This document shows positions 20 to 29,920 of a stretch of DNA of 37,213 nt, piece by piece. The DNA is taken from positions 1-37,213 of the IMG/VR virus record IMGVR_UViG_3300046327_000055. One strand, given 5' to 3'. The position numbers and the translations under genes were made by a program. Each line of letters starts with the position of its first letter. The stretch's first letter is position 1. The stretch comes from a virus. The notes beneath the pieces were generated by a model that was not told the DNA's origin, searched no databases, and saw only the letters and a program-made list of their open reading frames with translations.

Positions 20-901
20 TTAAAAGTTAAATTTGCTGAGGATGCTGTCCACAGCTTTCTTTGTATCTTGGCGCACGTACTCGTTCTTGCGTAGCTCTTG
101 TGGAGTCACGCCTAACAACGCTTGCTCTAACTCTTTACGTGCTATCTCAAGGGTGGGGTCGCCTACCACATTGAGTGCCTTGGTCAAGTCGCACAGCTCC
201 AGCGCACCATCGACAAGAGAGTCGTGGAAGCGGCGTTGCTTAGCCTCGCCCTGCACGTAGTCAGTCGTGAGTCGATCAGACATACGCTTCATGTGCTCAC
301 CTAGACGAGCACGAATGTCACGCATAGCAGACTCGATACGTTCCTCTGCCATCTCATTGAGACGCGCCTTGAGTTCAGCTTGCGCCTCGTTGCCGATGTC
401 AACACGGAAGTCACCCGCAGTAGGCACAGGTAGGAAGCCGATACGGAAGGCGAACTTAGTCACCATCTCGTTGGCTGTCGGGTAGTCAGAGCGCTTGAAC
501 ATATCGCCCAACGACATAGCTTGCGCTGAAATCAACGTGGGGTAGATGGTCACAAACTCAGCGACAAGGCGCTCGAACTCCTCCTCGAATTGATTCATGC
601 GCTCGGTGAACGCAACGAAGTTCACAGTAGGTAACAGGCGTAGCCCCGAGTCAGACCAAGGTAGGGTGTGGTCATACACATACGTGCGAGCCCTACCCAC
701 CATCTGTTGAATGACATCGAGTTCTGTGCGACCTGCAAGCAGGTGCTTGTTGACGCGTGCCGCATCCTTGGCGGTAGCGTTCTTGGTTGCGACTACCTCG
801 TCTGTCGTTGACTTGTCTAGCTTGCGTGCTGTCCACACAGAAGCATTGAACTCCACCAACATAGCGCAGGTGTCGAGGTTGTAACGTGGTTGTGTTGTCA
901 T
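20..901 (-). CDS. DUF3150-like protein of a MoxR/VWA module
   Basis: This 293-residue soluble protein has no signal peptide or membrane segment. The central and C-terminal parts are helical and charged, with an Arg/Glu-rich stretch at about residues 175-215. Segments such as FNASVWTARK near the start and the FEEEFERLVAEF...YPTL block resemble the DUF3150 family, which is often found beside MoxR-like AAA+ ATPases and VWA proteins in phages and bacteria. The AAA+ and VWA genes lie upstream in the same run of minus-strand genes (1763-4093), which supports the assignment. The start at 901 has a purine-rich leader (AAAGAGAG). The molecular role is unknown; a structural partner of the ATPase is inference. 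Family assignment is from recall of sequence pattern, not a search. Confidence 0.6.
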   Translation of the reverse strand: MTTQPRYNLDTCAMLVEFNASVWTARKLDKSTTDEVVATKNATAKDAARVNKHLLAGRTELDVIQQMVGRARTYVYDHTLPWSDSGLRLLPTVNFVAFTERMNQFEEEFERLVAEFVTIYPTLISAQAMSLGDMFKRSDYPTANEMVTKFAFRIGFLPVPTAGDFRVDIGNEAQAELKARLNEMAEERIESAMRDIRARLGEHMKRMSDRLTTDYVQGEAKQRRFHDSLVDGALELCDLTKALNVVGDPTLEIARKELEQALLGVTPQELRKNEYVRQDTKKAVDSILSKFNF

Positions 902-917
902 GATTGACTCTCTTTCT

Positions 918-1277
918 TTAGTTTGGGTTTGATGCTTTGATACGCGCTAGGCGCAGGATGTTGAGTGCGGTGAAGGCGGGTGCGTGTCTATCTCTCACCA
1001 ACATCTCGTGGTACGCACCCCACAACACAGCGCGATCTTTCTTGTTAAGCATGTGTTCTTTCTGCTCGTCGTTAAGACTTATGCTTGGTACGCTGTATAT
1101 CTTGAAGTGGCTGCGCCCATTAGCTATCCACAACTTGATGTTCGAGTCGATGTGCTCGATGGTGTGCTCAGTCTTGCGCCACTTATCCTCACCATCCATA
1201 GCTTCGAGCAGTTCAAGCCCGAGCTCGCTCATGCCACGGCGCTTACGCGCACGCCACCAGTCTCTAAGTTTCTTCAT
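918..1277 (-). CDS. hypothetical protein
   Basis: This 119-residue protein is not recognised. It starts MKKLRDWWRARKRRGM, a strongly basic amphipathic N-terminus, followed by a mixed helical domain and a basic C-terminus. A clear Shine-Dalgarno (AAGGAG on the minus strand) lies a few bases before the start. Its start overlaps the end of the 74-residue gene upstream by 4 nt, and it sits 16 bp before the DUF3150-like gene, so it is probably co-transcribed with the AAA+/VWA genes. No domain or catalytic motif is visible. Confidence 0.6.
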   Translation of the reverse strand: MKKLRDWWRARKRRGMSELGLELLEAMDGEDKWRKTEHTIEHIDSNIKLWIANGRSHFKIYSVPSISLNDEQKEHMLNKKDRAVLWGAYHEMLVRDRHAPAFTALNILRLARIKASNPN

Positions 1278-1498
1278 TGCACTTCTCCTTTGTTAAATCT
1301 GAATAGGCACAGAACTTTGAGCGCATCCATATCGCCGCCCTCGTCTGTGCCGTCATGCGTTGCATATACCAGCGGTGTCCCATGCTTGAGCATGATGCTG
1401 ATAGTGTTCTTGTACGGCGTGAGGATGAACAGGTCTTCGTCACCGAGGATGGGCAACTTGACCAGATCAAGGTCTTGCCATTTAGTTTCTATCAACAT
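1274..1498 (-). CDS. small hypothetical protein
   Basis: This 74-residue ORF is not recognised. It overlaps the next gene (918-1277) by 4 nt and the previous one (1482-1766) by 17 nt, the packing expected of translationally coupled phage genes. A GGAGG sequence lies about 9 nt before the ATG, inside the end of the upstream gene. The product is acidic in its middle (THDGTDEGGD) with alternating hydrophobic residues suggestive of a small beta-rich fold. It lies between the VWA gene and the DUF3150-like gene. No function can be assigned. Confidence 0.5.
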   Translation of the reverse strand: MLIETKWQDLDLVKLPILGDEDLFILTPYKNTISIMLKHGTPLVYATHDGTDEGGDMDALKVLCLFRFNKGEVQ

Positions 1499-1766
1499 CT
1501 CTCTGTGCCTCCATTAGTTCAAGCATCACCACGATGTTGTCGAGAAACAAGCGGCGCTCAGCACGTGTGTGCGTCTCAAGTTCTTGAACGATCGCGGCGA
1601 TGGGGTTGCTTAGCGGGTACTGCGCGTCTTGCTTAGCAAACTGCCCCACAATAAAGAACCGTTGCGGTGCTTTGCGTAAGACAGCGTGGTCAAGATACTC
1701 GAACGGACCGCAGGGAACCTGCAAGTCCTCACGCACATCCATGTGGAATGTGACATCCCAAGTCAC
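1482..1766 (-). CDS. small hypothetical protein
   Basis: This 94-residue ORF is not recognised. It starts within the last codons of the VWA/metallopeptidase gene (4-nt overlap at 1763-1766), so translation is likely coupled. The N-terminal half has beta-type alternation (MTWDVTFHMDVRED); the C-terminal half is a helix rich in Glu and Arg. It may encode an accessory factor of the AAA+/VWA module because of its position, but nothing in the protein itself shows this. Confidence 0.5.
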   Translation of the reverse strand: MTWDVTFHMDVREDLQVPCGPFEYLDHAVLRKAPQRFFIVGQFAKQDAQYPLSNPIAAIVQELETHTRAERRLFLDNIVVMLELMEAQRDVDRN

Positions 1767-2956
1767 GGCACAATCCTTATCACCTTGCCTGTGTGTGGCA
1801 CGAAGTCGTCGTTGTCAACGACACCCCACAGCAGAGGATAGGGTGCTACCTTGTACTCGGACTCGATGTAGCCATCGGTCAACATGATGACTGCCTTGGG
1901 CTTGATCTCGTGCTCGGCTATGTACTCGGCAACGCACGACACAGTAGTGCCGCCACCACCCTTGGGCTTCATGAGCGTAGCGATGGACTCGTACTCATGC
2001 GGCTTGAACTCTTGGTCACCTGCTACCTCGGTGTCCCACCACAGGATGCGCACAGTCTCGGGTCGCACGTTAGCGCACACACGAGCAATCTCACCGAAGA
2101 TGATGGGGTACGCCCAGTGCATAGAGCCTGACGTGTCACACGCTACAACCAACTCGCCGATGGACTCGTCGAAGTGTGAAGGCATAACGAAACCCGAGGC
2201 AAGCATACGCTTGTTGGGTGGGCAGAAGCGTGAGTTCTCATCACCCTGACACACAGTCTGAATGAAGTCGAGCAACGCATCCTTCCAGTTGGTAGTACGC
2301 TCGGCGGCAGTACCGAACACGTCACGCCCACCCTTGCCGTCACCGCGCATCTTGCGTACAAGTAACTCACCCTGACGACTAGCGTCATCGACCATCTTCT
2401 CCAGTACCTTGCGCTCGTCAGGCGTCATGTTGCTAGTGTCGATGATGTGCTCGTCGAAGTCGCCACCCTCTTGGAAGCGTGGGTCATCGGGGTTCTGTTC
2501 CTTCTCCTTGAGTAAGTCTTGCAACACCTGCGGAAAGGACTTGCCCTCGTACTTCTTATCGACAAGCATCGGCTCGGTTGGTCGGTCAACGAACTTGAAC
2601 TCGGGGTCCATCTCCTCGATCAGTCCGTTGATGACGTAGTCCATAGCCACGTTGCAGATGCGGTTGCCGTGTGTCTTGCTGAGTTGCTCGTAGTAGGGCA
2701 GGACACAATGCTTGTATGCAACGTGACCATTCTCATGCAACACAAGGTAGCGCAACTGCTTGCGTGTCAGCGGTGCGATGAACGCTGAGCCATAGAACTT
2801 ATCCTTGCCGTTAGTACCTGCGGTGGGTACGTCATCCTTGACCTCGGACTTGCCCATACAGATATGACCTGAGAGCAGAGCGAACTTAGGGTGACGCATA
2901 CAGTCGATGTTGGCGGCTTGTACGCGTTGGTTGAGTGGTAATTTATCGAATGACAT
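1763..2956 (-). CDS. HExxH metallopeptidase-like / VWA-domain protein
   Basis: The 397-residue protein has two parts. Residues about 60-110 carry HENGH (74-78), an HExxH zinc motif, followed by NVAMDYVIN (102-110), the layout of the DUF2201 N-terminal putative metallopeptidase family. Residues about 265-397 form a von Willebrand A-like domain with an intact MIDAS: DTSGS at 274-278, a Gly-rich GGGGTT near 333-338, and LTDG at 359-362. A charged linker of about 100 residues joins them. Families of this type pair with MoxR-like AAA+ ATPases, and one is encoded immediately upstream (2966-4093, 9-bp gap). The usual model is that the ATPase remodels a target through the VWA adaptor. Target and peptidase activity are unknown. 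CobT is a distant functional analogue; this phage shows no cobalamin pathway genes. Confidence 0.83.
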   Translation of the reverse strand: MSFDKLPLNQRVQAANIDCMRHPKFALLSGHICMGKSEVKDDVPTAGTNGKDKFYGSAFIAPLTRKQLRYLVLHENGHVAYKHCVLPYYEQLSKTHGNRICNVAMDYVINGLIEEMDPEFKFVDRPTEPMLVDKKYEGKSFPQVLQDLLKEKEQNPDDPRFQEGGDFDEHIIDTSNMTPDERKVLEKMVDDASRQGELLVRKMRGDGKGGRDVFGTAAERTTNWKDALLDFIQTVCQGDENSRFCPPNKRMLASGFVMPSHFDESIGELVVACDTSGSMHWAYPIIFGEIARVCANVRPETVRILWWDTEVAGDQEFKPHEYESIATLMKPKGGGGTTVSCVAEYIAEHEIKPKAVIMLTDGYIESEYKVAPYPLLWGVVDNDDFVPHTGKVIRIVP

Positions 2957-2965
2957 GATGCCTCC

Positions 2966-4093
2966 TTACTTGGTAGAGAAGAAAACTTTGTGCTCTTGCA
3001 ACATCTTGCCGAAGCTGTTGATGGTTGCGAACATAGCGACACGCTGTGATGAAGCGATGGTGTTGCAGAAGATGGACTGCATCTCTGCACGCATGCGCCA
3101 CACATACTCAACGATTGCCTCTGCCTCGGTACGATCAGCCGCACGTGATACGAACTGGAAGACCTGCACGAGTTGAGCAGTAGGGTTGTCGGACATCGGT
3201 GCGTTCTTGGGGTCTTTGATGACTCTGTCATAGCTACAAATATCGCGGCCAAAACGTACAAAACTGCCAAGAGCTTCCGCAGTAGTAGCACCGAGCGTAC
3301 CGATCAACGCCGCCTCAAGGGTATCGTCATCGACAACACCATCGCATGAATCGAGAATGTCAGACGCCGCATTGAGGGAACGAGGCGAGGCATACGCGAG
3401 TTGCATACTGCGAGGGTTGAAGATGTAGCCGTTGTCCTTGCTCATGTCCTTGCCCTCATACTTACCACCCTTCTCGTAGTCGATGAATGAGTCGAAGACT
3501 TGAGGGTAGTTGTGACAGAAGGCAGTCACGTTGGCATTGATACCGCGAGGGATAGCGTAGTTGTTAATCCACTCATCGACAGTAGGCTTACGCATCTTGA
3601 CGAACACGAGGCGGTTACGCAAGTGAGCTTGGATGCTATCGCCTAGACCCTCGGTGCTGAGGTTGGTAGCGCAGAACACAACACTACCCTCGGGCATGTG
3701 GTAGTTACCAACGCGACGCTCGTAGATGATTGGGGCAAGCACGTTCTTGATGAACTGCGGAGCCTTGGCAATCTCGTCAAGCATCACGAGGATAGGTCGT
3801 GCGCCATTGATACCTAACTGGTTGACCTTTGATACACCGAAGCGTTCGTTAGGCAACTCACGTGACACGCCGTTCTCACGATCGAGGTCAGGCATCCATA
3901 CAGAACCATCGGACAACTGCGTGCAATCGACAGGGTCAACAGCGATATGGTTGGCGAACTTGGGTAGAGATTTGATAGCGTGAAAGAGTGCTGTCTTACC
4001 GATACCGTTCTCACCTTCTACGATGATGGTACGTTTGTCACCTGCGTTAGCGATGAGGTTTTGAACTTGAGTGAAAGAAAGATATTTGTTCAT
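2966..4093 (-). CDS. MoxR/CobS-like AAA+ ATPase
   Basis: This 375-residue ATPase has Walker A GENGIGKT (27-34), Walker B ILVMLDE (101-107), a sensor-1-like CATN (141-144) and a candidate arginine finger in HLRNRL (157-162). This is the order seen in MoxR-type AAA+ proteins and CobS. I place the start at 4093: a GGAG lies 8 nt upstream, and the ORF can be extended to 4138 only through the leader. It is the first gene after a sigma70-like promoter (4160-4188), with a perfect palindrome in the leader (4129-4149). It is followed by the HExxH/VWA gene, its expected partner. Role: ATP-driven remodelling of an unknown target. Function in the phage is inference. Confidence 0.85.
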   Translation of the reverse strand: MNKYLSFTQVQNLIANAGDKRTIIVEGENGIGKTALFHAIKSLPKFANHIAVDPVDCTQLSDGSVWMPDLDRENGVSRELPNERFGVSKVNQLGINGARPILVMLDEIAKAPQFIKNVLAPIIYERRVGNYHMPEGSVVFCATNLSTEGLGDSIQAHLRNRLVFVKMRKPTVDEWINNYAIPRGINANVTAFCHNYPQVFDSFIDYEKGGKYEGKDMSKDNGYIFNPRSMQLAYASPRSLNAASDILDSCDGVVDDDTLEAALIGTLGATTAEALGSFVRFGRDICSYDRVIKDPKNAPMSDNPTAQLVQVFQFVSRAADRTEAEAIVEYVWRMRAEMQSIFCNTIASSQRVAMFATINSFGKMLQEHKVFFSTK

Positions 4094-4109: not shown

Positions 4110-4128
4110 GAAAGAAAAGATTGATGTG

Positions 4129-4149
4129 ATGCGGACACCTTGTCCGCAT
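4129..4149. promoter_or_regulatory. palindrome copy 1, operator-like
   Basis: Perfect inverted repeat ATGCGGACA-cct-TGTCCGCAT (9-bp arms, 3-nt centre). It lies 35 nt before the AAA+ start and about +5 to +25 relative to the start predicted from the promoter at 4160-4188, a position suited to a repressor or to an RNA hairpin in the leader. Five related copies are found elsewhere in the left arm. Confidence 0.7.
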
Positions 4150-4159
4150 CCGTTTGTTT

Positions 4160-4188
4160 AGTATAACAAGTTGTCCAGAGTTTGACAG
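4160..4188 (-). promoter_or_regulatory. sigma70-like promoter for AAA+/VWA operon
   Basis: On the minus strand: -35 CTGTCA (4188-4183), 17-bp spacer, -10 TATACT (4165-4160) preceded by TGT, giving an extended -10 TGTTATACT. It lies in the only sizeable gap (122 bp) between 4216-5202 and the AAA+ gene. Four of six -35 bases match consensus. Confidence 0.6.
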
Positions 4189-4215: not shown

Positions 4216-5202
4216 TTATGCCCATGTTGTGATGGTTGTGCGAGGGTATGCCCCATGCTCCATGAACTGCGGCTGTTCTACTGCCTCAGTCCCGCCGTTA
4301 GCACCCACTAACCTAAAGACCTTGTTGAGAATAGCTTTCTCGAAACACTTCTCTGTAATAGGTTTCTCTAAGTCTGAGGGTTTTGAGTGCGTCTGATTGG
4401 GTTGCGCGTAGCGATACGTTAAGTGAAAGCTACCCTGCTCATACCCACGCTTGGCAACGAGCGTGTCGTACACCTCTTGGCACAGGTCAAAGAAGTGGTC
4501 AACCCAATGTTGCTCAAGGTCATCGCCGCCCTCCCATATAGATTCGACAGCCATACGCTCGTTGTATGACGTGTGACCACCACCGAAGGGGCGACCCTTC
4601 TCATGCGTAGGCATGCAGTTGTCCGCGAACTCAGGCATACGCATCTGTGCAAGCATGATGAGACTGCTGAACTTATCCTTGATGCGCTTGCGTCGTGCCT
4701 TGTCCTCGGCACTTGACTTGTGCGTGAAGTGCGGTGCGTGTGATGACTTCTCCACTATGAGCAAGCCGTTGGCATCGAACGTCAGGTCAGCGCAGAACTT
4801 AGAACCCAAGTCGCTGAATACGTTGTTGCAATACAGCGGCACGATGACCTCCTTACCTGCCGTAGTAGTGCGGCGCATCGCTGACCATATACCGAGCACG
4901 CTCTGTTGAAAGCTACTGCTCGTGATACTGTTGTGCCCTGCGTACAGTACGCGGCGATGTCCGTTCTCGTCAGGCTTGTAGAACCTAGCCATTGCAGTTT
5001 GATACAAGCACACATCGTAGTAGTAACCATCGGCATGACGCTCGATGCGGTAATGCCTGTTACCCGATGCGCTTTTCTTGAGGCATCGCTCGTCTGATTG
5101 CCAGTTCTTGCAACGCTTGTGTTCCTTCCTGCTGTTGAAGTACTCGTCTGCCATCTTGTAGTTGTAGATGGATGCTGTGTTTCCTACTGTTCCGAATCCC
5201 AT
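4216..5202 (-). CDS. hypothetical protein
   Basis: This 328-residue soluble protein is not recognised. It is rich in aromatic and charged residues, with Cys at scattered positions (for example RCKNW, ERCLKK, DVCLYQ) that do not form an obvious zinc motif. The start at 5202 has a good AAGGAG Shine-Dalgarno. It is the last gene before the AAA+/VWA promoter and ends 28 bp upstream of the -35 element. No nuclease, polymerase or ATPase motif is visible. An early or auxiliary phage function is inferred only from its location in the left arm. Confidence 0.65.
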   Translation of the reverse strand: MGFGTVGNTASIYNYKMADEYFNSRKEHKRCKNWQSDERCLKKSASGNRHYRIERHADGYYYDVCLYQTAMARFYKPDENGHRRVLYAGHNSITSSSFQQSVLGIWSAMRRTTTAGKEVIVPLYCNNVFSDLGSKFCADLTFDANGLLIVEKSSHAPHFTHKSSAEDKARRKRIKDKFSSLIMLAQMRMPEFADNCMPTHEKGRPFGGGHTSYNERMAVESIWEGGDDLEQHWVDHFFDLCQEVYDTLVAKRGYEQGSFHLTYRYAQPNQTHSKPSDLEKPITEKCFEKAILNKVFRLVGANGGTEAVEQPQFMEHGAYPRTTITTWA

Positions 5203-10756: not shown

Positions 10757-11362
10757 TTGTTTGAACATTTGGTGCAATTTGAACCGGGGAACACCGACCC
10801 GGAATTTGTAGAGCTCGATGACGCAGAGCCGGGTGAAGTCCTGTCTGCGCAACACAAGACCGTCGAGTGGCTAGAAGAACTGGGCGTGCGCCCAGATGAC
10901 GTGCAGGACAAAGAGCAGCAGACCGCTGCGGCACGTGAGGCGTTCGGGTCCCTGACCACCAACGCAGACAATCAAGATCAGTTGGCTGATCTTATTCAGA
11001 TTAAGACCCCGGAGGCCGTGCGCCACCTGACGGGTATGCTGGCCGCCTACGACTGGGAGTTCGTGCAGCAGGCCAAAGAGATTCGCGGCTACGCCGTGGC
11101 ACAGTTGATCGAGGAAACCAAGTCCTCCAACGCCAACATCCGACTCAAAGCCTTGGGCCTTCTAGGAAAGGTAACCGAGGTTGGCTTATTTACGGACAAG
11201 ATCGAGGTAAAGAAAACCGAACTGTCCGATGCCGAGATCGACGCCAAGATCAAAGAGAAGCTCAACCGCTTCATGGGCGTCATTGACGTGGTCGATGTAA
11301 GCGACGTGTCAGAAAACTCTAACGATGAACCTAAACAGCCTGACCAGTCTGACGAAGCCTGA
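10757..11362 (+). CDS. terS: terminase small subunit
   Basis: The 201-residue protein is acidic at both ends, with a helical centre (about residues 75-150). Its C-terminal segment, KKTELSDAEIDAKIKEKLNR at about 153-172, is typical of small-terminase-like proteins that bind packaging sites and feed DNA to the large subunit. It overlaps the large terminase by 38 nt in another frame. The start is TTG at 10757: a stop codon lies immediately upstream in frame, AGGAG is 6 nt away, and the next in-frame Met is deep inside. DNA binding at a packaging site is family knowledge; no site is identified here. Confidence 0.75.
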   Translation: MFEHLVQFEPGNTDPEFVELDDAEPGEVLSAQHKTVEWLEELGVRPDDVQDKEQQTAAAREAFGSLTTNADNQDQLADLIQIKTPEAVRHLTGMLAAYDWEFVQQAKEIRGYAVAQLIEETKSSNANIRLKALGLLGKVTEVGLFTDKIEVKKTELSDAEIDAKIKEKLNRFMGVIDVVDVSDVSENSNDEPKQPDQSDEA

Positions 11363-12866
11363 GCTCGCGGCTCTGCAAAAGGCACTCCCCACCATGACGG
11401 TGGCGGAGAAGATCGAGCTTTTCGACATGCTTGAGGTGCGCGAGCGCCGCGCCAGCCTGAAGGCGGCCAGTTCCGGCATGCTGGGGTTCGCCAACGCGGT
11501 GTACCCGGGGTTCAAAGTGGGGCCTCACCACCGCAAGCTGGCCAGAATCTTCGAGGACGTGATCGCCGGCAAGAAAAAGCGCGTCATCATCAACATCGCG
11601 CCGCGTATGGGCAAGTCGGAGTTCAGCTCCTACCTGTTCCCAGCCTACTTTTTGGGCAAATTCCCCGAGAAGAAGATCATCATGGGCACCCACACCGCTG
11701 GTTTGTCTGAGGATTTCGGCCGCCGGGTGCGGAACTTGATTGATTCGGAGGAGTATGCTGAAGTTTTCCCCACAACAAACGTGGCTGCGGATCAGAAAGC
11801 AGCTGGTAAATGGAGCACAAGCGCTGGTGGTCAGTACTATGCTGCTGGTGTCGGCGGTGCTCTTGCTGGGCGTGGTGCTGATTTGTTCGTTATTGACGAT
11901 CCTCATTCAGAACAGGACGTAAAGACCAACTCGCGGCTCGCGTTCGACACGGCGTGGTCGTGGTTCCAGACTGGTCCGTTGCAGCGTTTGATGCCGGGCG
12001 GTGCGATCATCGTCATCATGACCCGTTGGTCCCTTTTGGACCTGACTGGCCGTCTGATTGACTACCAGACCAAGAATCCCGAGGCCGTGCCATGGGAGAT
12101 CGTGGAGCTGCCGGCGATTTTGAACGAGGACACCGAGGAAGAGAAGTCCTTGTGGCCCGAGCAGTGGCCACTGCATGCGCTGAAGCAGGCGAAAGCGTCG
12201 ATGGACCCTCAGTACTGGAACGCCCAGTACATGCAGCAGCCCACGTCCAACAATGCAGCGATCGTCTCAAGAAAATCATGGCGAATCTGGACGGCCGACG
12301 AGCCGCCACGGTGCGACTACATCATTCAGAGCTGGGATACGGCCTTTGAAGCCAAGACTCGGTCCGACTATTCCGCGTGCACAACGTGGGGCGTCTGGTA
12401 CAACGAGGAGGAAGGCAACGCACCGCAGTTGATCCTGTTGGACGCGTTCAAGGACCGCATGGAGTTCCCAGAATTGAAGACCGTGGCGCTCAAACACTAC
12501 CGTGAGTGGGAGCCTGACGCGTTCGTGATCGAGAAGAAAGCCGCCGGCGCACCGCTCATCCAAGAACTGCGCAACATGGGCATCTTCGTCCAAGAATTTA
12601 CACCGAGCCGCGGAAACGATAAGATTGTGCGTATGAACGCTGTGGCCGACCTCTTTAGTTCAGGTAAAGTCTGGGCACCCGACACGCGCTGGGCGCGTGA
12701 AGTGATTGAAGAAGTCGCATCGTTCCCGAACGGCGAGCATGATGACTACGTGGATACGACATCTCAGGCTCTGCTGCGCTTCCGCCAAGGCGGCTTCATT
12801 CCATTGGATAGCGACGAGAAAGACGATCCCGTCATCTTCAAACGCAAATCACACGCATACTATTAA
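11325..12866 (+). CDS. terL: terminase large subunit
   Basis: The 513-residue packaging motor has an N-terminal ATPase and C-terminal nuclease. Walker A is IAPRMGKSE (91-99), Walker B LFVIDDP (187-193) and the coupling motif MTRW (232-235). The RNase H-like nuclease has acidic residues in SWDTA (D338), VIEKKA (E403) and EHDDYVDT (D473/D474). All key residues are present and the length is usual, so it should be active. Its start overlaps the small subunit by 38 nt. It pumps DNA through the portal encoded 8 bp downstream and cuts the concatemer. Confidence 0.95.
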   Translation: MNLNSLTSLTKPELAALQKALPTMTVAEKIELFDMLEVRERRASLKAASSGMLGFANAVYPGFKVGPHHRKLARIFEDVIAGKKKRVIINIAPRMGKSEFSSYLFPAYFLGKFPEKKIIMGTHTAGLSEDFGRRVRNLIDSEEYAEVFPTTNVAADQKAAGKWSTSAGGQYYAAGVGGALAGRGADLFVIDDPHSEQDVKTNSRLAFDTAWSWFQTGPLQRLMPGGAIIVIMTRWSLLDLTGRLIDYQTKNPEAVPWEIVELPAILNEDTEEEKSLWPEQWPLHALKQAKASMDPQYWNAQYMQQPTSNNAAIVSRKSWRIWTADEPPRCDYIIQSWDTAFEAKTRSDYSACTTWGVWYNEEEGNAPQLILLDAFKDRMEFPELKTVALKHYREWEPDAFVIEKKAAGAPLIQELRNMGIFVQEFTPSRGNDKIVRMNAVADLFSSGKVWAPDTRWAREVIEEVASFPNGEHDDYVDTTSQALLRFRQGGFIPLDSDEKDDPVIFKRKSHAYY

Positions 12867-19219: not shown

Positions 19220-19936
19220 ATGGCCCGTGGTATTTACAAGATCATCAACATCGTCAACAACAAGTTCTACGTCGGCAGCGCCGTGGACTTAAAGCGTCGC
19301 AAAACGCGCCACTTCTCAGAGCTGCGCACAGGTAAGCACAACAACCGCCACTTACAGGCGGCATGGGTGAAGTACGGCGAGCAGGCTTTTGTATTTGTGG
19401 TTGTTGAAGAGCTACAACCCGACGCAGACTTGCTGGCTGCCGAGAATGTCTGGCTCCGAGAGCATGTGGGTAAGGATTACTGCTACAACATTGGTGTTGA
19501 TGCCACGGCCCCCATGTTAGGTATGGGTGGAGAAGCGAGCCCGACGTGGGGGTACAAACACTCTGAAATAAGTCTTAAAAAAATTGGTATCGCATCAAAA
19601 GCGCGAGTGCAATCGGAAGAAGAAAAGGTGAAGCGTCGTATCACCATGCGCGGTAAGCCACAACCCGCAGCGGTCCGAGCCAAGATCAGCGCTACGTTGT
19701 CAGGCGAAGGCAATTTCTGGTACGGCAAGAAACGTCCAGACCACGGAGCTAAGGTAGCGCGGGCAGTACAGGTGATCGACAGCAAAGGAAACACGGAGAC
19801 ATTCAACAGCATCACGGTGCTGCGCGAAGAACTCCAGCTCAAGCCGCCCACAGTCAACCGAGCGCTCAAGTCGGGGCAACCGATCAGTCGCGGCCCGTTG
19901 CAAGGTTGGGTGTTCAAATATGTTGACCTCACGTAA
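19220..19936 (+). CDS. GIY-YIG homing endonuclease 1
   Basis: The 238-residue protein has GIY at residues 4-6, YVG at 17-19, the conserved Arg near 26-27 and a Glu in AAENVW (E75), the GIY-YIG catalytic set. It is followed by NUMOD3-like basic motifs (PTWGYKHSEISLKKIG, FWYGKKRPDH) and a C-terminal helix-turn-helix-like segment (FNSITVLREELQLKPPTVNRAL) typical of intron-encoded endonuclease repeats. It is free-standing between capsid and the next structural gene and is not inside an intron that I can see. SegA-type enzymes are the closest functional analogue. AAGGAGAG precedes the ATG. Confidence 0.88.
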   Translation: MARGIYKIINIVNNKFYVGSAVDLKRRKTRHFSELRTGKHNNRHLQAAWVKYGEQAFVFVVVEELQPDADLLAAENVWLREHVGKDYCYNIGVDATAPMLGMGGEASPTWGYKHSEISLKKIGIASKARVQSEEEKVKRRITMRGKPQPAAVRAKISATLSGEGNFWYGKKRPDHGAKVARAVQVIDSKGNTETFNSITVLREELQLKPPTVNRALKSGQPISRGPLQGWVFKYVDLT

Positions 19937-29248: not shown

Positions 29249-29920
29249 ATGACAGTCACGAGCGTCTATTGGATTAGATGTGCCGACCATACCGACCTGA
29301 TGACTCAGGGGTATGTTGGCGTGTCCAAAGACGCTAGTGCCCGTTTTGAGCAACACTTCAAGCGTGGGCAAAACCGCCACCTCAAGTTTGCAATCAAGAA
29401 GCATGGCTGGGATAACTTGGTTAAGACTCAGATTCTGATCGCGGACGAAGATTACTGCCTCGACATCGAGCGCAAGCTGCGTCCTGCTGACGGCATTGGC
29501 TGGAACATTGTGGCTGGTGGGGGCAAGCCGCCTTTGGCAGTTGGGAACAAGTTCAAACTTGGAATACCAGCTTGGAACAAGGGCTTGAAGATGTCAGCCG
29601 AGACGCGAGAGAGGGTCAGCAAGGCCGCGAAAGAGCAGTGGACTAGGCTTGGTATGCGTGAGCTGCTTTCAGGCGCCAAGAAGGGTAAGCCATCGCCTCG
29701 TAAGGGTGCAACACACAGCCCTGAGTCGATTGAGAAGATGCGTTTGTCGCACACTGGCAAACCGTCAAAGAAAAAAGGTAAGCTGTTGACTGATGAGCAG
29801 AAGGCAAATCTGTCATTGCTACTGAAAAAGAATCCGTGGACTTGTCCACATTGTCAAACTGTTGGGTACAACAAAGGCGCTGGCAATCGTTGGCACTTCG
29901 ATAACTGCAAGGAAAAATAA
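29249..29920 (+). CDS. GIY-YIG homing endonuclease 2
   Basis: This 223-residue protein has a divergent GIY-YIG core: VYW at residues 6-8, YVG at 22-24, Arg32 and a Glu in LDIERK (E74). It is followed by NUMOD3-like repeats (GIPAWNKGLKMSAETRE, KKGKPSPRKGATHS, SHTGKPSKKKGK) and a C-terminal zinc-finger-like CPHC...HFDNC. It is a free-standing gene lodged between two S74 fibre genes, directly abutting both. It probably targets one of them. It differs in length and sequence from endonuclease 1, so the two are not recent copies. Confidence 0.82.
   Translation: MTVTSVYWIRCADHTDLMTQGYVGVSKDASARFEQHFKRGQNRHLKFAIKKHGWDNLVKTQILIADEDYCLDIERKLRPADGIGWNIVAGGGKPPLAVGNKFKLGIPAWNKGLKMSAETRERVSKAAKEQWTRLGMRELLSGAKKGKPSPRKGATHSPESIEKMRLSHTGKPSKKKGKLLTDEQKANLSLLLKKNPWTCPHCQTVGYNKGAGNRWHFDNCKEK

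Follow-up and report, generated by a model that had tools for sequence, protein, structure and literature searches.

At its left end, a 37,213-base linear virus fragment (IMG/VR record IMGVR_UViG_3300046327_000055, the whole of which we call the window) carries a minus-strand operon for an AAA+ ATPase, a protein combining a zincin-like domain with a VWA domain, and a DUF3150-like protein. We consider it fairly probable that these proteins build a remodelling machine of the MoxR/midasin type, active at about the time when phage replication starts. The observations behind this reading are the gene content, the invariant motifs, the co-inheritance of the three genes, the conservation of their promoter and the replication block beside which they lie.

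The genes are read in the order AAA+ (4093-2966), VWA (2956-1763), three small open reading frames (ORFs; 1766-1482, 1498-1274 and 1277-918) and DUF3150-like (901-20). Their junctions are tight, with short overlaps or abutting ends, and ribosome-binding sites are present at most of them. This agrees with the first-pass annotation, which had listed an intact AAA+ gene, a VWA gene with HENGH and metal ion-dependent adhesion site (MIDAS) motifs, a DUF3150-like gene and, separating the latter two, three small genes; the ORFs were confirmed, all on the minus strand. The main features are the following.

2966-4093, minus strand (ATG at 4093): AAA+ ATPase, 375 amino acids, MoxR/midasin-like, relative of N4 gp24 (phrog_1297); basis: phrog and PDB profile matches
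3992-4015, minus strand: Walker A motif GENGIGKT, residues 27-34 (G32 and K33 invariant)
3773-3778, minus strand: Walker B acidic pair D106-E107 (LDE; D106 invariant)
1763-2956, minus strand: zincin-VWA protein, 397 amino acids, DUF2201_N plus DUF2201, relative of N4 gp25 (phrog_1314); basis: Pfam, phrog, AlphaFold2 and Foldseek
2723-2737, minus strand: HENGH, residues 74-78, start of HExxHxxxxH (H74, E75, H78 and H83 invariant in 20 sequences)
2123-2137, minus strand: MIDAS motif DTSGS, residues 274-278, completed by T337 (1946-1948) and D361 (1874-1876)
20-901, minus strand: DUF3150-like protein, 293 amino acids, third conserved member of the module, by a Pfam score near the cut-off and by linkage
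4160-4188, minus strand: promoter with an inverted-repeat -35 region, CTGTCAAACTCTGGACAACTTGTTATACT, conserved across relatives
4128-4150, unstranded: palindrome GATGCGGACA-AGG-TGTCCGCATC (minus-strand reading), between promoter and AAA+ start, from a palindrome comparison

The Three Conserved Proteins

The ATPase matched the phrog_1297 ATPase over residues 5-353 (E 2.2e-42), and its alignment showed G32, K33, D106, N144 (sensor 1), R161 and R238 to be invariant. When a profile of 19 AAA+ sequences was searched against the PDB, midasin was the best match, with 3.2e-28 summed over six modules and 37 bits (E 1.8e-8) for the best single module; Clp proteins scored 35 bits and CbbQ 4.6e-5. The midasin alignment spans the whole AAA core and crosses the helix-2 insert region without a large gap, whereas the Clp alignment covers the core only in part. 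Pfam AAA_5 was below its cut-off. Judging from these comparisons, the protein likely belongs to the MoxR/midasin clade.

The VWA protein matched phrog_1314 (1.1e-64) and, above the Pfam cut-offs, both the DUF2201_N metallopeptidase domain (2.7e-6) and the VWA-like DUF2201 (1.1e-12). In 20 sequences, down to 22-24% identity, H74, E75, H78, H83, N102, A104, D106 and N110 were invariant, and so were the MIDAS residues D274, S276, S278, T337 and D361. The full invariant motif is HExxHxxxxH plus NxAxDxxxN, which supplies further candidate metal ligands, so that the label "HExxH" is too narrow. Such a residue pattern is the one predicted for a working zincin-like metal site and a working MIDAS; peptidase activity is putative.

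The AlphaFold2 model of this protein had a predicted local distance difference test score (pLDDT) of 70.5, with helices at residues 64-82 and 97-115. Its top Foldseek match in the PDB was the human MDN1-MIDAS domain complexed with NLE1-UBL (E 1.9e-4); NorD from the NorQD complex was also in the list (E 0.036), and the VWA protein ORF892 of Acidianus two-tailed virus was among the viral structural matches. A second structural alignment (VIA-align) of residues 264-396 gave Z ~12 and a root-mean-square deviation of ~2.8 over ~130 residues against VWA and integrin I domains. For the modelled protein, the alignment shows a VWA fold without favouring any one VWA family. Matches to the VWA domain took up the fold search, so that the N-terminal half was barely covered; for that half, sequence matches to MJ1213 and HtpX were weak and lay at the HExxH helix. 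Taken together, the families, the invariant residues and the midasin and CbbQ profile matches support the original annotation of the first two genes as a MoxR-like AAA+/VWA remodelling pair.

The third protein scored 23.3 bits against Pfam DUF3150 (PF11348), where the cut-off is 24.9. Two close relatives exceeded that value (26.1 and 27.1 bits) and other relatives fell below it. A PDB profile search with DUF3150 returned helical chance matches only, and we found no mention of DUF3150 in the literature searched.

Linkage of the Three Genes

Across 142 loci of the window's lineage (some contigs were fetched twice, and contig ends explain many of the gaps), the AAA+ gene was detected in 124, the VWA gene in 135 and the DUF3150 gene in 134. 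Among the loci found with DUF3150 as the seed, 70 had 2.5 kb or more of upstream sequence, and each of these contained both partners. The order was VWA-AAA-DUF3150 in 73 loci and AAA-VWA-DUF3150 in 46, within a span of 2.3-5.3 kb. Median identity was 60-78% for the trio (76-78% for AAA+ and DUF3150), which comes near the 78-96% of the terminase, versus 35-52% for neighbouring genes. The trio thus stays clustered across a lineage of ~65-kb freshwater phages despite flips of gene order.

It is also found farther away. In the Planktothrix phage Pag-Yong1, whose capsid protein is 73% and whose terminase is 47% identical to those of the window, the recognisable part of the neighbourhood consists of the trio (25-29% identity) and one small ORF only. 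Burkholderiales plasmids and contigs carry the same three families by sequence (21-35% identity); unlike in the window, the order is AAA-DUF3150-VWA, and the plasmid genes lie beside PRTRC and conjugation genes. When DUF3150 of the Pag-Yong1, Simplicispira or IncC type was sought in other IMG/VR phage groups, one contig (L175) was found, with AAA and DUF3150, which ends before a VWA gene would be visible. That the three genes travel together is therefore borne out by the 70 loci with enough flank, the two gene orders, Pag-Yong1 and the plasmids.

Two side observations belong here. The Pag-Yong1 gene at L004:9124-10164, second in line downstream of the VWA gene, bears the annotation anti-CRISPR AcrVA2; it had no Pfam match, and no relative of it was present in the window-lineage loci compared. 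Trio genes also occur on short contigs in metagenome-assembled genomes of Polymorphobacter (L150) and Chthoniobacterales (L151), with DUF3150 75% and 56% identical, respectively. These contigs may hint at hosts, or may be mis-binned phage contigs.

Promoter and Genomic Position

The operon had been described as promoter-led. A generic sigma-70 scan was uninformative, finding fewer sites than expected by chance (4 versus 7.8). The description stands in another form: an element TTGTCAA-N4-TTGACA-(5-10)-TATAMT recurs in relatives upstream of the first trio gene, whichever gene leads, and occurs once in the window, at 4188-4160 on the minus strand. Of 47 distinct relatives, 36 had it in that upstream position, and it had no further copy in the 554 kb of these loci. 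The pattern was defined after examples had been seen, so that the first count is partly built in; the informative result is the lack of copies at other places.

The inverted repeat TTGTCAA-N4-TTGACAA overlaps the -35 region of this promoter (window 4160-4188, minus strand, with equivalents in L007, L032 and L059) and, by its sequence, looks like an operator. Separately, the palindrome GCGGACA-NNN-TGTCCGC has five exact copies and one copy with one mismatch between 4131 and 10052 of the window (0.23 expected), all in the early minus-strand region. Among 65 distinct relatives, 56 have a palindrome of similar geometry but varying sequence upstream of whichever trio gene comes first, versus 6% of random windows. 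A system of operators or of hairpins in the 5' untranslated region is possible.

In relatives, the genes downstream of DUF3150 encode DNA polymerase A, a PD-(D/E)XK exonuclease, a SNF2-type helicase and a primase-helicase-like protein; that is, the trio heads the replication block. In phage LUZ7, gp24 and gp25 likewise adjoin a helicase and a DNA polymerase, and in N4 the genes for gp24 and gp25 are transcribed as middle genes (PMC4193335). In the window, the plus strand from ~10.7 kb onward carries the terminase (11325-12866), portal, major capsid protein and other virion genes. The relatives measure ~62-66 kb, and roughly 28 kb of the window phage genome is therefore missing. That the trio stands first among the replication genes favours, without proving, a role in the replication phase or in host takeover over one in virion assembly.

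Relation to Known Systems

The closest phage counterparts are gp24 and gp25 of N4 and other Schitoviridae, an AAA+ protein (phrog_1297) and a zincin-VWA protein (phrog_1314) encoded adjacently or nearly so, close to replication genes. N4 gp25 matches Pfam DUF2201_N (3e-87) and DUF2201 (1e-46). The window pair differs in being only 20-29% identical to the N4 proteins and in being accompanied by DUF3150, which was not detected in N4. These families are core genes of N4-like phages, with no function assigned in the reports (PMC4193335, PMC2784036, PMC7650795). We rejected the name "HNH endonuclease" that is attached to N4 gp25 (L073:3165-4307) in RefSeq and to phrog_1314 in PHROGs; it is wrong because N4 gp25 has the same DUF2201_N plus DUF2201 pair.

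Among cellular machines, midasin/Rea1 shares the combination of an AAA ring with a MIDAS-bearing VWA domain, and it came first both in the Foldseek search with the VWA protein and in the PDB profile search with the ATPase. Midasin/Rea1 is a single giant polypeptide of ribosome biogenesis and, to our knowledge, has neither a zincin domain nor DUF3150. NorQ-NorD, CbbQ-CbbO, RavA-ViaA and CobS-CobT resemble the window pair in having a MoxR-clade AAA+ protein and a VWA protein as separate chains, but their VWA partners and substrates come from other families. We know of no zincin/DUF3150 combination in any of these four systems.

The IncC plasmid pAR060302 (AAA, ssb, bet, exo, DUF3150, VWA) has the same three roles amid recombination genes, with a DUF3150 match of 4e-91. 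Its AAA+ protein, however, is AAA_5 plus CbbQ_C and its VWA protein matches Pfam CobT. Direct profile comparison with the window trio was weak, and we therefore treat the IncC set as analogous, tied to the window mainly through PF11348. The MoxR-vWA ternary conflict systems of Kaur et al. 2020 (PMC7159879) also join MoxR and vWA to a dedicated third protein; there, unlike in the window, it is VMAP, FtsH or a beta-propeller protein instead of DUF3150.

While the AAA+/VWA pair is already known, the literature searched appears to hold no description of a three-part form with DUF3150, of its occurrence in both phages and plasmids, or of the conserved promoter. The comparison connects N4 gp24 and gp25, core phage unknowns, with machines of the midasin/NorQD type, here bearing a zincin domain, and marks DUF3150 as the constant third member of the set on phages and plasmids. 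A long-standing unknown would thereby become open to biochemical tests, and N4 in laboratory Escherichia coli is an accessible model of the pair.

Proposed Mechanism and Alternatives

In the NorQD complex, the VWA protein puts a finger into the AAA+ ring, and ATP hydrolysis twists and stretches it (PMC13036017). In the general MoxR-vWA model, the MIDAS captures a peptide, and a forced rearrangement follows (PMC7159879). By analogy with these related machines, the window ATPase would form a hexameric ring onto which the zincin-VWA protein would dock, its Mg2+-containing MIDAS gripping an acidic peptide of a target protein; ATP hydrolysis would then pull or twist the gripped target. The HExxHxxxxH domain might clip the captured protein, or might be a metal-dependent docking or structural site. 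DUF3150 could be a dedicated helical third subunit, possibly binding substrate or nucleic acid. Since the unit has its own promoter and heads the replication genes, its most likely job would be to displace or disable some complex of host or phage proteins, presumably as phage DNA replication begins.

Several points weigh against this remodelling machine. The AlphaFold2 model of the DUF3150-like protein, mostly helical, was unusable (pLDDT 49). The single-module midasin match of the ATPase barely exceeds that of ClpC (37 versus 35 bits), and as a single-sequence query the window ATPase matched no AAA protein in the PDB. The linkage data come mostly from one phage lineage, as the terminase identities indicate, and the distant cases are for this reason more telling. 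The schitoviruses N4, LUZ7, Presley and VBP47, as well as KpS8, carry the AAA+ and VWA genes, and a search of these five for DUF3150 gave nothing at E below 1. In a plasmid of Candidatus Manganitrophus (L070:5854-9127), DUF3150 lies beside an ordinary AAA ATPase, DUF1257 and DUF2997, with no detectable VWA partner. Because of these two sets of cases, the trio is not obligatory.

A bolder version, which we put forward tentatively, would make the operon a new ATP-dependent, protease-like machine of mobile elements, common to phages and conjugative plasmids. Here the midasin-like ring would deliver a MIDAS-captured target to the zincin site of the same VWA subunit, with DUF3150 as specificity factor, and would clear or reset DNA-bound complexes of the host or the element as replication or recombination begins.

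Rather doubtful, in our opinion, is a counter-defence or host-takeover device, in which the ATPase would pass a host protein with a defensive or regulatory role to the zincin domain, to be destroyed there. The invariance of the zincin residues would suit such a device, as would the AcrVA2-annotated gene near the Pag-Yong1 VWA gene and the occurrence of the module on phages and plasmids and hardly elsewhere: in a class-wide survey, 1 of 185 genomes matched, namely the query genome itself. Yet counter-defence genes evolve fast, whereas AAA+ and DUF3150 are core genes that change slowly, and a search against defence models gave no match beyond P-loop background.

An assembly chaperone for virion or tail, like the AAA+/VWA pair p618/p892 of Acidianus two-tailed virus, seems unlikely. 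A precedent in which a MoxR-VWA pair takes part in assembling the tail of an archaeal virus is cited in PMC7159879, and ORF892 was among our structural matches. Against this, the operon heads the replication block, with the structural block on the opposite strand; N4 gp24 and gp25 are middle genes; and the module also resides on conjugative plasmids, which have no virion.

A CobST-like cobaltochelatase, raising the cobalamin supply by hijacking host CobN, is very improbable. Viral CobST roles have been proposed for archaeal tailed viruses and cyanophages (PMC8651126, PMC9503304), and the same architecture occurs in IncC plasmids, with their CobT-type VWA protein. The window VWA protein, however, matches DUF2201_N/DUF2201, the ATPase has no CobS-type match, and no CobS/CobT family match was obtained for the window proteins. 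The conserved zincin site and the DUF3150 subunit, moreover, are not parts of CobNST. The first-pass annotation had already argued that cobalamin genes were missing, and this held: neither CobN (PF02514) nor the ribonucleotide reductase large chain was found in the window or in ten relatives, which argues against a chelatase role. That the three genes are chance neighbours devoid of joint function is scarcely credible, for although phage lineages often keep gene order, the trio persists in Pag-Yong1 after almost complete turnover of its neighbourhood, recurs on plasmids, changes order without loss and has one conserved promoter.

Small ORFs and Other Features

The remaining genes of the region are these.

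1482-1766, minus strand: small ORF, 94 amino acids, no relative found (0 of 142 lineage loci)
1274-1498, minus strand: small ORF, 74 amino acids, sporadic (8 of 142 lineage loci)
918-1277, minus strand: small ORF, 119 amino acids, sporadic family (24 of 142 lineage loci, median 39% identity)
4216-5202, minus strand: upstream ORF, 328 amino acids, conserved in position and fast-evolving (median 35% identity)

The three small genes had been suggested as adaptors, an idea that their distribution does not sustain: they are not conserved, in contrast to the trio (124-135 loci), and are thus unlikely adaptors. In other loci the same gap is filled by other, unrelated small ORFs. The three genes behave as passing accessory genes. 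The 328-residue ORF is probably outside the machine; the conserved promoter lies between it and the AAA+ gene.

Elsewhere, two ORFs amid the virion genes of the window (19220-19936 and 29249-29920) resemble, by eye, homing endonucleases of the GIY-YIG type. Among the late genes of a 65.7-kb relative, a 2638-residue protein (L172:10059-17972, minus strand) contains the large polyvalent protein domain LPD38.

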